Below are positions 9,170-31,885 of a stretch of 32,414 nt of DNA, one piece after another. A model generated the notes under the pieces. It worked only from the letters and a program-made list of their open reading frames with translations. It did not search any database and was not told the origin of the DNA. Each line of letters begins with the position of its first letter. Position 1 is the stretch's first letter. The position numbers were made by a program, and so were the translations under genes. The stretch comes from Cochliopodium minus (lineage: Eukaryota; Discosea; Himatismenida; Cochliopodiidae): NCBI GenBank assembly GCA_024220525.1, contig JAMYWO010000034.1, positions 127,693 through 160,106 on the forward strand, given 5' to 3'.

Positions 9170-10030
9170 TTAATTAGGAATCTTTTTCAATAAATCAACA
9201 AACATTTCACTGGAGTTAAAAGCAGTCTTTGCAGAAGTTTCTTTGAAATCAATTCCATACTTATTCGCTAAATTCTGACCCTCCTCCCTCGTAACTTCCT
9301 TTGAATCCTCCAAATCTATTTTATTCCCAATTAAAACAATGGGAAAATTCTTCATCAATTCCTTCTTTTCTTCTTCTTTCATTTTCACAACATCTCCTTC
9401 TATATCTCTCACCCTCATAACTGAATAAATGTATTTTTCACAACTATTGAAAGATTCTTTCGATGTTATTGAATAAACTATCGCTACTGCATCTCCCATC
9501 CTTATATTATTACTATCAGAAAAAAAAAAATTCAATTTAAAATTTCTTTTATTATAAATAAATTCAATTTGAAATCTCAAAAATTATTTTTTTATTTTTT
9601 TTTACTCTCTAAGTACATTATATTCTTCTTGTCCATAAGTATCTAATATCTCCGCTTCAACAACTCTATCTCCAACCTTCTCTCTTTTGCTACATGCTAT
9701 CATACACTTTTAAATATTCGTTTTAATAAATATTGAAAGATAGTATTGGTGATCATTTTACTGGAGTATAACCTTGATCAAATTCATTACTGATATATCT
9801 TTCCATCAAAGAGGTTTTTCCTATTTATTTGGAGAAAAATTTGTTAATTTTCTTTGTAAGAGTTTTGAATTTATTGATTATTATTACCCACACATCCATC
9901 TCCTGACAAATTTCCAATGAATAAATATTATTTATTTTTAAAGTGAAAAGGTTGAACCCAATAACACAATTTTAAAATAATTCTTTTGATCCTTTTTTAT
10001 CTTTACTTCTTTTTGATTTTTATTTCCCAT
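9170..10030 (-). CDS. Divergent Ras-family small GTPase, copy A
   Basis: Five minus-strand exons (10030-9958, 9902-9888, 9820-9762, 9706-9606, 9512-9170) join in frame into 196 residues. The P-loop is GDGCVGKTSL, G3 is DTYGQEEY (Tyr at the usual Ala of DTAGQ), G4 is GNKIDLED and G5 is ETSAKTAF. The segment where switch I should lie reads YTPCMIACSK, with Cys in place of the near-invariant Thr35, so effector and Mg2+ handling are probably altered. There is no C-terminal CaaX box; the protein ends LLKKIPN. The start MGNKNQKEVKIKK has Gly2 and a basic run, suggesting N-myristoylation in place of prenylation (inference). The second exon is only 15 nt and encodes most of the P-loop. A close paralogue lies immediately upstream in the same orientation. 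Confidence 0.85.
9888..9902 (-). other. 15-nt microexon encoding the Ras P-loop (copy A)
   Basis: Between CAG at 9905-9903 and GT at 9887-9886 lies gagatggatgtgtgg, read as (G)DGCV(G). The split glycine codons at both ends are completed by the neighbouring exons. Copy B has an exon of the same size and phase at 10806-10820 (gagatagtggtgtag). Confidence 0.85.
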
Positions 10031-10109: not shown

Positions 10110-10958
10110 TCAATTAGGATTGACAATCAATTTCAACAAATCAACAAACATTTCACTGGAGTTAAAAGCAGTCTTTGCAGAAGTTTCTTTGAAATCAATT
10201 CCATACTTATTCGCCAAATCCTGACCCTCCTCCCTCGTAACTTCCTTTGAATCCTCCAAATCTATTTTATTCCCAACTAAAACAATGGGCAAATTCTTCA
10301 TCAACTCCTTCTTTTCTTCTTCTTTCATTTTGTCATCATAAGAGAAATCCCTCACCCTGAAAACTTCATAGATGTATCTCTCGCAACTGTTGAAGGATTC
10401 TTTCGATGTTATTGAATAAACTATCGCTACTGCATCTCCCATCCTTATATTATTACTATGAAAAAAAAAAAAAATTCAATTTAAAATTTCTTTTGATTCT
10501 CTTTAAAAAATTTTTTTTTTCACTCTTTTAAGGAAGTAAATTCTTCATTCCTTGTTTCAAGTACCTCTGTGTCGATTTCTTTTTCACCTACTTTTTCTCT
10601 TTTGCTACAAGATATCATGCACTTTGGATAAGCTCTTCATTAAAACTGAAAATATGAAGAATAAAACTTTAAATATTATTACATCATAGTTCCTGATGAA
10701 TTGATTGCTTATATATCTTTCCATCAAAGAAGATTTTCCTTTATAACGATATATAAAAGATAAAAGCTCATTTTGAAAAAGAATATAATCTGTTTATTCA
10801 TATACCTACACCACTATCTCCTTTTCATTTGGAATATATGTTTAATATTTTACTCTTTATGAAAATCTAAATGCAAATTTACCCAACAAAACAATCTTAA
10901 AATCATTCTCCTTCCTTATATGAACTACCTTCACATTCTTATTACTCTTATTACCCAT
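10110..10958 (-). CDS. Divergent Ras-family small GTPase, copy B
   Basis: Five minus-strand exons (10958-10883, 10820-10806, 10738-10683, 10621-10524, 10455-10110) join into 196 residues, the same length and intron positions as copy A. The P-loop GDSGVGKSSL, GNKIDLED and ETSAK are intact. The switch II motif has decayed: DTYGQEEY of copy A is replaced by ETRNEEF, losing the Gly and catalytic Gln of DxxGQ. Switch I reads YDCMISCSK, without the usual Pro-Thr. GTP hydrolysis should be poor or absent (inference). The start MGNKSNKNVK again offers Gly2 plus basic residues, and there is no CaaX end (LLKLIVNPN). The last exon is almost identical in DNA to that of copy A, whereas the first four exons differ much more. 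It could be a pseudo-GTPase or a regulator of copy A. Confidence 0.82.
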
Positions 10959-19273: not shown

Positions 19274-22200
19274 TTATTTGTTATTAACAGTTTTGGATCT
19301 TCTCCTTGTTTCAACTATCTTCTTATCACCATGATCATTATTTTCATTATTATTATTATCTTTTTTATTGCTTTGAAATCTCGATTTAAAAGAACTTCCA
19401 AAGCTCGATTTTTTAAACATATTCTCTAGAGGGGTGTGATCATTGTTGGATTCGTTTTTGGGTGAGAAAAGCCTTGGAGAAGTGAAAATGGCATTATCTT
19501 GGATAGTAACATTCTCATGTGATTGAGATGTGGGGATTTTTTCCCTGATCACTTGATTAACTTGCCTTGAAGATAAAGAATAAACTTTTTCTTTATTTAA
19601 AAAAAATTAAATTAAAGAAATCTTTAGATTAAAAAAATAAAAATTTTTTTTTTTTTACTATTCATTGGAGGAGTATCGGACAGTTTTAAAGAAGGAACTT
19701 TTTCTTTTAAGACAATAATCTCACTAGATGATTTCTTGGTGTGGGGAGGAGTTTGGTACTGGACAATAGGGCTGTTGCTCTTAGAGTTAGTGGGAGAGGG
19801 AGTGAGGTTGGAACGGATGGAGTTGGGAGAAATGGTGAAAACTTTAGTTTTGATGACACCATTGTGGTTCTGAGGAGGAGATTTGACAACGGAATTAAAC
19901 ATAGGTTTTTTGGTGATCATCTTTTGTTGTGTAATGTTGATACTTTCATTTTTAACAATGTTGTTCTTATTTACAATACTATTATTTGGATTGTTATTAT
20001 TTGGATTGTTATTGTTATTGTTATTGTTATNNNNNNNNNNNNNNNNNNNNNNNNNNNNNNNNNNNNNNNNNNNNNNNNNNNNNNNNNNNNNNNNNNNNNN
20101 NNNNNNNNNNNNNNNNNNNNNNNNNNNNNNAACAATGTTGTTCTTATTTACAATACTATTATTTGGATTGTTATTATTTGGATTGTTATTGTTATTGTTA
20201 TTGTTATACGGATTAGTATTATTTTCATTATTGGTTGTTGGTGTAGTTCTTATAATAGTTTTTTCTATACTGTCATTGTTAACAATCTTGTTCTTATTAA
20301 TATTATTATTATTATTTGGATTGTTATTGTTATTCTTATATGGATTATTGTTGGTATTATTTTCATTGTTGGTGGTTGGTGTACTTTTTATAATAGTTTT
20401 TTTTTTCCTGTCTGTGGTGATCATTTTTTGTTGTGTAATGTTAATACCATCACTTACATTAATTGAATTATTTTTTGGATTATTGTTGGTATTATTTTCA
20501 TTGTTAGTTGTTCTTATTATGGTTTTTTTGTTCCTGTCCATATTGATCACATTAGAGACGACAGGAGCATGCTTATCTAAATCCAAAGAGACAGAGAACT
20601 GGCTGCTTCTCCCGCCACCGCTCCTACTAAGAGAAGAGCCCAAATCAAAAGAGGAATCAGAACAAGACTGGTTAGTGAGGATGTTATCAAGAACATTGCC
20701 ATTGAACCTCTTGATTTCACTCACCTCCTCAGACGTCAATTTCTTAACATTACTTTCAGTGACCAAACTTTTAGATCTTTTGGTTCCAATGATGGTGTGT
20801 CTACGAATAACAACAGTGGGAACTTTTTCGTGCTGAACAGATGAAATCTTCTCGGAACTTATTGCTTTGATTAGTTGGGGCGTCGATGTGTTTCTTATGG
20901 TGGGGATATTCGTGTGTACAACTGTTTGTTCCGAGCTCAATGTTTGTTTGGAAGTGTTGACCTTTTGATCTATGAATCCTCCGCTCCCGAAAATGGAGTT
21001 GACGCTGTTTATCTCTATGGTTTCGAATGAAGTGTTGTTCTCTGTTTTTGTTTCCGTTGTGCCTTCCTTTTTGCCGTCTTTGAAAAACTTTTTGTGATTA
21101 GTTTTGCCTGATCTCAGACCTTTTTTCAAACAAAAAATATTATAAAAAAAAATTGAAAAAATCAAAAATAAATATTAAAAATAAAAATGTACAAAAAATG
21201 AAAAATAAATCAAAAAAATAAAATATAAAATGAACAAAAATTAATAAAATAAATAAAAATAAAAAATATATTAATAAAAATAGGTTTTACTTCCTTGTGG
21301 TGATAATTTTTCTTGAGAAACTTTAATTCCAAAAGACTTTCGTCTCAAGAAACCATTTTCCTTGTAATCATCGCCAACAGACCTAGGACTGATGATCTTG
21401 TCAGTTTGAGGAGAAGTGGTCTCCGAGTTTGCTTCGGAAACAACCTCATAATTCTCCGAATCCACAGCTTTGTACTTGGTAAGATTCATTCCACGAGGAG
21501 TGAAATACTTGTTGTGCTTTTTTTTTTTCTTGACAACGATCCCCGTAAAGTTTTCATCGTATTGAGTGACATTCAAAGAGGTTCGGAAAGATCTTCTCTT
21601 CTTCTTTTTGTCAGGTTCTTCTCCTTCGATGGCCTTCTCCTCGTCCTTGGGATGCAACTTGAACCTGAGAGAGCCCTTCTTGTTATTCTCGTCGACTTTG
21701 TGAACAGTGAATTCGAGAGCGTTTCTATTCGACCCACTTTTGTAATCACTGTTGTTGATACTGTTGTCCACCTTGAAAAAATTGTCTTCTCCGTTTTTGA
21801 TGGTAACATTTTCAGTGCTTCCATTGACACTTATATTGTTATTGACTCTGTTGTTTTTTTTGATGATGTATTTGCTGGAAAAATCCATGAAGCTTTCCGA
21901 CATTGCCACGTTGTTCATGTTTTCGTTTAGTTTGAGGGCGTCTTCTAGGTTGTTGGATTTCGAGTACATCTCTCCTGTTTCGGACAATTTCTCTGTGATG
22001 GTTCCTACTCCTTTGTAACTTGAAGAAGAATCTACAATCAGACTTTTTGATGTTCTCTTCCCTCCTTTTTTAATTACTTTTTTGCTTGTAACTTTTATTA
22101 CATTTCTGGAAATAATAGTTTCAAAATAATGAATCAATGAATAAAAATGTGAGTAAAAAATAAATTAAAAATTAAGATTAAAAATTTGTAAAAAATAATG

Positions 22201-29992: not shown

Positions 29993-31885
29993 ATGATTGA
30001 GGAAATTGAAAACCAAAATATATTTTTAGAAAGGGAGATCAATGAGAATGAGAAAATAAACGATTCTATTTCCAATTCAGAATATGATAATATCCTTTCT
30101 GTCAATTTGATTGATCTTTTAGAAAAAAGATTTGATTCAAATCAATGGACAGAATATTTCAAGAAATATACATCACCTGAATGGGTATCAACCAAAAATA
30201 TCTATTATTCATTCACAATATAAAATTTATAAACTCCATTATAACGTTTATTAACTTTGATGATAATAGATGAAACAAAATCCACATCAAAAATCCAATG
30301 TTCATCACTTGATGAGAATAATCATTTGGAAATACACCGAAAAATTCTACAATTTGGGATATTATCTTCTGGATGACAAGCGAGTGATAGAGTTTAACAA
30401 AGATTTATTGAGACAATATATCAAGAAAACAAAGGCATACACTGAATGTAGAAATAACATCGATGAAAATTGGAAAAATAGGTACATTTTTAAAGTATGA
30501 TTCTTTTATGAAGGTTTTAATCTTTAGATATGAAACTGAGATAGAAATATATGAAAATGATTGTATTGATATTACCTTTTTGATGCAGGATAGAGGATAT
30601 AATCCAATATGTAATCTTTCAATTTAAAAATGAATTTTTTTTTTAAAATTAATTAAAAAGGTTTGAACATGGCAAATAGATTTACACCTGGTATTTCAAT
30701 TTTTGACATTCAAAAAATTTTATGTTCAAAAAAAATTCAATTTTAGGAGGTGGATATAGTAAGTTTTTTTGATTATGAAAAATTTCGTTAATTGAAAAAT
30801 TTCTTGACAATTTAAAATTTTCTTGATAAGAACACGGAGATGGAGCTCAAGTAAATACTTTTTTGTAAACTTTATATGATTAGTTAAATTTAAAATTTTA
30901 ATTTTAGGAAGGTATTATCCACTTTGAAATTTGTTTTTCATTTTTTTTTTCATTTTTAAAATTGAAGAAAACTTGTAATAATTATTTTTTTTTTTTATTT
31001 TTATTCATAAACCAAAAAATCCAACAATTCTTTCAAAAAAAAAAAAAAAAGATTTAGGAGGTCAAATTATTATGAATCACTAGAAGATCCAAATAAAGTT
31101 CATGGAAAAAAAAACTTATATCCCATGTCCGATTATGGATGTACATTCAACATTATTTTTTTTTCTTTTTTTTTTATACATTAAAAATTTCATTTATATT
31201 TTGGTTTTTATTTAAAAGGTAATTACTCTCCTGGTGTATTTGTTTTTCGTTCAAATGAGTTCACAGGATATAAATTCTTAGAAAAGCCACGTTTAGTTTC
31301 GTTCATAGCTTGTGCAGCACAAAGAAAAGTAAACAAACCCCTTTTTTTTTTTTTTCATCTGATTTTTTAATTTTTTTAAAAGCCTCAAGTCGATCAATCA
31401 CTGGGTCCTGGAAAATGGAAACTATTAGAAGTATTATTGTTCTAGTTTTTTTTGTTTTAAATTTTTATTTCTTTCCAAAGAATGAATACCAAAGTCTTTG
31501 CAATAAAGTAGAAACTATTTTTTATGCTGCAGCAAAAGAAGGTCATGACAGTTTGGTATTATCTGCTTTAGGGTAATTAATACTTACAAAAAAAATATTT
31601 TAATTTTTAAATGTTTTTTTTAAAGATGCGGAGCTTTTTTAAATCCTCCCAATGAAGTTTCTCGTGTTTTCAAGGATGTTTTGCTTGGAAAGTTTAAAGG
31701 AGTTTTCAAAAATGTCTCTTTCAGTATCATTGAAGATCATAACTCTAAAAAGTAATCCCGCCAATCAAAAAAAATTTTTTATTTTATTTTTATATTTCAC
31801 AATGTTTTTCAATAGGAGCCATAATCCTTTTGGTAATTTGAAACCATTTGAAGAGTGTTTTAATGTGGCAGCAAAGAGAATTTAA
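29993..31885 (+). CDS. Microbial-type poly(ADP-ribose) glycohydrolase (TIGR02452-like)
   Basis: Fourteen exons join in frame into 364 residues: 29993-30184, 30270-30481, 30528-30610, 30661-30690, 30747-30758, 30831-30850, 30908-30911, 30968-30974, 31052-31140, 31219-31328, 31383-31430, 31481-31572, 31626-31751, 31816-31885. The macrodomain-derived PARG fold is clear: LNMANRFTPGGG (GGG 173-175), GDGAQEENLFRRS (QEE 183-185), YSPGVFVFR, VSFIACAAQRKP, LGCGAFLNPPNEVSRVFKDV. The GGG-x7-QEE signature is that of bacterial/fungal-type PARGs, whose second Glu protonates the ribose-ribose bond. The enzyme should remove poly(ADP-ribose) from proteins. The first ~130 residues are a family-typical helical extension. 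The QEE motif only appears if 4- and 7-nt exons are spliced in; the assignment does not depend on them, since the other blocks suffice. Confidence 0.9.
30747..30974 (+). other. Run of microexons encoding the PARG catalytic loop (12, 20, 4 and 7 nt)
   Basis: Exons 30747-30758 (gaggtggatata), 30831-30850, 30908-30911 (gaag) and 30968-30974 (aaaactt) each sit between an AG and a GT. Joined to their neighbours they read GGGYKHGDGAQEENLFRRS in one frame, exactly the family signature. Skipping either the 4-nt or the 7-nt exon breaks both the frame and the motif. Confidence 0.75.

Follow-up and report, generated by a model that had tools for sequence, protein, structure and literature searches.

A gene within a 32,414-nucleotide (nt) stretch of the Cochliopodium minus genome is predicted to encode a microbial-type poly(ADP-ribose) glycohydrolase (PARG) whose catalytic glutamates are assembled from two neighbouring exons of only 4 and 7 nt. 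The stretch, hereafter the window, covers positions 127,693 to 160,106 of the forward strand of contig JAMYWO010000034.1 (assembly GCA_024220525.1; G000:C34:127693-160106), in a genome of 44.65 Mb and 598 contigs. Both exons are predicted coding microexons, i.e., exons of at most 15 nt with canonical AG/GT borders and a frame that closes only when they are included. The observation of the adjacent 4-nt and 7-nt exons was confirmed at the level of the sequence, the splicing itself being predicted. We consider this to be, probably, an ordinary PARG in which the microexons are a constitutive by-product of dense short introns rather than a switch that has been selected.

The gene was traced through the AT-rich window (G + C of 0.22-0.33 per 2 kb) using a spliced aligner that allowed GT-AG introns only, with a minimum of 40 nt. 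The resulting product has 364 codons, running from an ATG at 29993 to a TAA stop codon at 31883-31885. Its identification as a microbial-type PARG is based on matches to PF10021 (54.2 bits against a cut-off of 23.5, the first-draft partial protein having been searched), TIGR02452 (score of 127.6 against a cut-off of 50, starting at residue 87) and the structure 3sig (E 2.6e-19, starting at residue 139). For the first exons the prediction owes more to the open frame and the canonical sites than to homology, and enzyme activity is likewise a prediction. The gene was absent from the matches of a six-frame scan of the genome with PF10021, at E values up to 10, and a search of the window against Rfam at the gathering threshold gave no match. 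The coding span and the exons and introns around the active site are as follows.

29993-31885, forward strand: PARG coding span of 14 exons and 13 GT-AG introns of 46-85 nt (spliced alignment, open frame).
30661-30690, forward strand: 30-nt exon encoding the end of C, LNMANRFTP and the first base of G.
30747-30758, forward strand: 12-nt exon GAGGTGGATATA encoding GGGY and one base of K.
30831-30850, forward strand: 20-nt exon encoding the remainder of K and HGDGAQ.
30851-30907, forward strand: 57-nt intron GTAAAT...TTTTAG, donor at the 59th and acceptor at the 54th percentile of 56 reference introns.
30908-30911, forward strand: 4-nt exon GAAG encoding the first Glu of QEE and the first base of the second Glu.
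30912-30967, forward strand: 56-nt intron GTATTA...TTGAAG, with a weak donor (4th percentile) and the acceptor at the 25th percentile of the same reference introns.
30964-30974, forward strand: contiguous GAAGAAAACTT, preceded by TT and not by AG.
30968-30974, forward strand: 7-nt exon AAAACTT encoding the remainder of the second Glu, Asn and two bases of Leu.
30975-31051, forward strand: 77-nt intron GTAATA...AAAAAG; in aligned coding position, introns of the paralogues L040 and L041 lie 2 nt away, on either side.
31052-31140, forward strand: 89-nt exon encoding the remainder of L, FRRSNYYESLEDPNKVHGKKNLYPMSDYG and one base of C.

The motif exons, in order of 30, 12, 20, 4, 7 and 89 nt, give the product PGGGYKHGDGAQEENLFRRS, and the spliced protein reads GGG-YKHGDGA-QEE-NLFRR. 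Its alignment to 3sig is free of gaps from GGG through QEE to the next Arg, the alignment to 5zdd is likewise gap-free over the motif, and the family-spaced GGG...QEE signature is obtained only if both microexons are included. The coordinates, AG/GT borders and closed frame given in the initial annotation held for all six exons, and the spliced frame upholds its assignment of the first Glu wholly to the GAAG exon, with the second split over the next intron. Two of its statements on the motif need to be narrowed. GGG-x7-QEE touches five exons and not six, the sixth completing Leu and carrying FRR, and QEENLFRR was called the exact family motif whereas 3sig and 5zdd share with the window PARG only QEE-x-L-x-R at this point (QEEGLARSS, QEEDLCRGS). 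The structures 3sig/3sij and 5zda-5zdg belong to the same family and have the GGG and QEE motifs at the same spacing. At the motif 3sij differs from 3sig by one letter, reading QEA, which we take to be a mutant of the catalytic glutamate. We assume that 3sig derives from the bacterium Thermomonospora curvata and that the PARGs of all these structures are bacterial, and so lack spliceosomal introns.

As the window protein was itself used to align the window, which is circular, the part played by chance was tested separately. Between 30831 and 31140, 118 canonical chains can be drawn that have no more than two internal exons, none longer than 60 nt, and no intron shorter than 40 nt. In 15 of them the exons form an open reading frame that also preserves the frame downstream. 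Of these 15, four encode QEE; one of the four lacks AAAACTT, and the other three are alike except for their final acceptor. Once donor 30850 and acceptor 31051 are fixed, the proposed chain is the only in-frame canonical one with up to two internal exons. When the 201 nt between these sites were shuffled preserving dinucleotides, with internal exons of at most 15 nt, QEE.[LIVMF]FRR was allowed in 1 of 20000 shuffles and any QEE in 4 of 20000. In a further set, in which the real sequence was kept from 30964 onward, the block AG-GAAG-GT, present as AGGAAGGT at 30906-30913 (AG, the GAAG exon and GT), arose in 51 of 200000 shuffles under the condition that neither intron fell below 40 nt.

We propose that 13 short AT-rich introns cut the PARG coding sequence and that, gained or shifted over time, these dense introns came to lie close together. 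In the mRNA only 4 nt would separate two of them, with a third following after another 7 nt, which places the QEE codons in the 4-nt and 7-nt exons. Each short intron (57, 56 and 77 nt) would be recognised across itself, i.e., by intron definition. In that case the length of an exon may be of no consequence, and the two microexons would be joined constitutively. Intron definition is suited to this genome because its introns are short (median of 64 nt, with 61/83 of at most 85 nt). The splicing as drawn, the constitutive inclusion, the intron definition and the origin of the introns are all matters that we infer.

Small exons are to be expected in such a gene, because intron density alone suffices to produce them. 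A tally was made of internal exons in 7 PARG and 12 Ras-family genes; the 64 exons had a mean length of 77 nt, and an exponential distribution was not rejected (Kolmogorov-Smirnov p = 0.70, the mean being taken from the same data). Exons of at most 4 nt numbered 2 where 3.2 were expected, and those of at most 15 nt numbered 11 against an expected 11.3; six exons of 11-15 nt were in Ras-family genes. When 13 introns were placed randomly in a coding sequence of 1086 nt (1092 in the final model), 45% of trials yielded an internal exon of at most 4 nt and 6% yielded two neighbouring exons of at most 7 nt each. The tally left out the first and last aligned exons, the weakly aligned 5' parts of PARG paralogues and all of the paralogous locus L036, along with 9-nt and 15-nt exons in the 5' part of L041, taken for aligner noise, and a 42-nt 'intron' inside a window Ras gene, which is probably coding. 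Nine more internal exons from three more Ras genes included none of at most 15 nt, bringing the totals to 11/73 for this class and 3/73 for exons of at most 10 nt. Loci L069 and L070 had no internal exon. A broader survey covered thirteen 10-kb stretches, six of which held more than 1,900 N (L052 and L053 almost wholly), and RRM1 (L054) was the sole gene used from it; not all genes are intron-rich, since RRM1 has a single intron in its aligned part and no internal exon.

The same family offers a comparison of intron positions. PF10021 and protein searches placed PARG paralogues on C592, C86, C66, C196, C198, C234 and C309, while relatives in bacterial or archaeal genome contigs were not found in one scan with six peptide patterns. 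The QEE codons lie within a single exon in L038, L039, L040, L041 and L042, and the microexons are thus not conserved in these paralogues. Near the motif the window gene has introns at coding positions 517, 529, 549, 553 and 560. In coding positions of the window protein, the intron at 517 is shared exactly by L040, which has another at 558, and introns occur at 562 in L041, 516 in L042 and 520 in L039; an intron at 569 is common to L039 and L042, and one at 512 to L038 and L042. The introns at 549 and 553, which bound GAAG, are without a paralogue intron within 4 nt among the six paralogues compared (L037-L042), and look private to the window gene.

Very small exons are also predicted elsewhere in the paralogues. 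L039 (C196) carries the 11-nt exon AACACCTGGAG, and alignment with the window protein gave a second 4-nt exon in L042.

L042:1941-1944 (C309): 4-nt exon CCCC of a PARG paralogue, at the NPGG motif.

The CCCC exon is flanked by GAAG upstream and GTAAAG downstream, giving S-N-L-N-P-G-G-S-Y. It is the sole internal exon of at most 40 nt allowed there by canonical borders when no intron may be shorter than 40 nt, and its omission breaks the frame. SNLxPGGSY was recovered in 103/50000 shuffles of this region. A microexon as such is not rare by chance in L042, because some in-frame microexon of at most 15 nt was present in 7875/50000 shuffles.

In a separate observation, L036 (C592) holds a pair of adjacent PARG-like genes that have GEE, within one long exon, or VES in place of QEE; these genes are possibly not active as PARGs.

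A number of results weigh against a by-product of dense introns. Internal exons of at most 10 nt were fewer than expected (3/64 against 7.8), and outside the window gene there was only 1 in 52, thus very small exons may be disfavoured, a mild argument against splicing without any size limit. The genes and loci were not chosen at random, the fifteen Ras loci having been taken from 164 matches where the match began well inside the profile, and they lean intron-rich. The donor after GAAG stands at the 4th percentile of the 56 reference introns. Finally, for 10/28 paralogue introns the nearest intron of the window gene is no more than 4 nt away, where 4.0 were expected (P = 0.004), and for 7/28 it is no more than 2 nt away, where 2.3 were expected (P = 0.005). 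This comparison used circular shifts over the conserved part only, in L037-L042, L036 being omitted for poor alignment; at distances of 0, 1, 2 and 4 nt the P values were 0.38, 0.055, 0.005 and 0.004.

Such near-coincidence weakens random placement, and wholly independent placement of introns among the paralogues is ruled out by it. The pattern could come from homologous introns that have shifted, from preferred sites of insertion or from alignment slack, and the intron at 560, which ends the 7-nt exon, may be an old intron that has shifted. GAAG is present twice, as the exon at 30908-30911 and as the last four bases of the following 56-nt intron. Target-site duplication on intron insertion was considered as the source of this repeat and rejected, as at least 4 shared bases were found in 5/83 introns, where shuffling the pairings gave an expectation of 3.6 (P = 0.26).

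The initial annotation suggested that the microexons could act as an on/off switch for poly(ADP-ribose) removal. Under such regulation, weak splice sites would lead to conditional inclusion, and skipped forms with premature stops would turn PARG off. Whether the 4-nt exon is left out, the 7-nt exon or both, the resulting form meets a premature stop, which upholds the related claim that skipping would inactivate the enzyme; each of the three introns tested likewise brings in an early stop if retained. These stops fit a switch, but would be equally expected without regulation. The weak donor after GAAG also fits, and a microexon switch has been reported for Trichoderma Xlr2, according to excerpts of that paper (PMC11121469). 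Weak donors are, however, common in the PARG gene, where 7 of the other 12 rank between the 7th and 12th percentile; the gene also has two acceptors that rank at the 0th and 2nd percentile. The introns bounding GAAG lack a paralogue counterpart within 4 nt, and no regulatory sign was seen beyond the one weak donor, splice sites alone having been examined for regulatory elements. With small exons expected from intron density, we regard a regulated switch as unlikely, for lack of support more than by disproof.

The existence of the 4-nt exon was weighed against a single 113-nt GT...TT intron (30851-30963) followed by an 11-nt exon, GAAGAAAACTT at 30964-30974. This sequence stands uninterrupted in the genome, 11-nt exons are known from the same genome (L039, L057), and 17/83 sampled introns are of at least 113 nt. 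It would be the longest intron of a gene whose other introns are of 46-85 nt, a point of little weight given this genomic range. TT acceptors are exceptional in spliceosomal introns, a rule which the sampled introns cannot test as the aligner was limited to GT-AG, and the AG-GAAG-GT block, rare in the shuffles, would be a coincidence. For these two reasons the 113-nt intron is less likely than two canonical introns, and we think it a distinctly poor prospect. The two models predict identical mRNA and protein, so that complementary DNA (cDNA) alone cannot separate them, and the test proposed in the initial annotation, in which cDNA reads joining GAAG to AAAACTT would support the exons, is insufficient for the 4-nt exon. 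An assembly or base error that masks a true AG before GAAGAAAACTT, leaving one canonical 11-nt exon, is very improbable, as it requires two adjacent wrong bases, leaves the upstream AG-GAAG-GT block unexplained, and would sit in a gene that is otherwise open across 14 exons.

Two canonical introns around a constitutive GAAG exon remain our preferred reading, and it finds its nearest comparisons in published microexons, for which we rely on excerpts of the cited papers. A 1-nt exon is described in Arabidopsis (PMC4674806), and plant coding microexons span 1-15 nt, 1-nt exons included (PMC8831610). Together with a one-nucleotide exon in Fusarium CYP621A (PMC12940212), these excerpts make it too strong to place the C. 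minus exons close to the lower limit of splicing, as the initial annotation did. An adjacent pair of 5-nt and 12-nt exons occurs in a rice transcript and in a Zygnema peptidase M1 gene, and intronization has been proposed for the peptidase M1 pair (PMC8831610, PMC11096116). Going by those excerpts, the plant microexons resemble the PARG pair in being ultra-small coding exons, two of them adjacent, that annotation has overlooked. The plant pairs, however, are verified from RNA and recur between species, whereas the PARG pair is predicted from sequence and smaller (4 + 7 nt), and the paralogues lack counterparts of the introns on either side of GAAG.

The fungal and human cases are informative in other ways. 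As far as the excerpt of the Fusarium paper goes, the exon of CYP621A was likewise predicted from its canonical borders, from the reading frame and from a conserved motif of the enzyme, in the setting of short introns (median of 56 nt in F. graminearum); CYP621A differs in having a single microexon, backed by 20 orthologues and RNA reads (PMC12940212). Human MPC1 has a constitutive 4-nt exon, the splicing of which is described as persisting when the exon was shortened to 2, 1 and 0 nt (PMC9929638, in excerpt). In both MPC1 and the window PARG the exon is of 4 nt, which is not a multiple of three, and exon length is not limiting in MPC1. Unlike the MPC1 exon as excerpted, the PARG microexon is flanked by introns of 57 and 56 nt, for which intron definition is proposed. 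In the literature searched, partly as excerpts, we found neither adjacent 4 + 7-nt exons nor PARG microexons, which does not establish the absence of an earlier report. Microexons of such size are already known in plants, fungi and human; what is uncommon here is the presence of two tiny neighbours and a split active-site codon, and the lineage is probably also uncommon for such exons.

Other features were recorded in the window and in the Ras family. Two neighbouring and similar Ras-type genes lie in the window; both have an exon of 15 nt at the P-loop, and further Ras/Rab exons fall within the aligned GTPase domain. The small-GTPase set is large, with at least 164 Ras matches in the genome (771 candidates, 150 scored). 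Their positions, with those of two open frames, are given below.

9170-9583 and 10110-10475, reverse strand: the two Ras-type genes of the window.
L057:1062-1072, gene strand: Ras/Rab exon of 11 nt.
L061:654-665, gene strand: Ras/Rab exon of 12 nt.
L062:387-399 and 710-722, gene strand: Ras/Rab exons of 13 nt each.
C1:633782-634150, reverse strand: Ras match in an open frame of 14,711 residues, which may cross N stretches.
19624-21174 of the window, reverse strand: Asn-rich low-complexity frame with repeat units broken by an N run.

If confirmed, the PARG gene would provide a protist case of two constitutive microexons side by side, smaller than the published plant pair, and a natural setting in which to test if genomes with short introns need any minimum exon length for splicing. 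It is possible, and we suggest it only tentatively, that the spliceosome of this organism has no practical lower exon limit, recognising introns of mostly 45-85 nt individually. The intron-rich part of the genome would then contain constitutive exons of at most 10 nt in the hundreds to thousands, some adjacent and splitting active-site codons, most of which annotation would be likely to miss. Gene models in short-intron genomes would lose catalytic residues unless microexons are modelled; the six-frame PF10021 scan did not recover this PARG.
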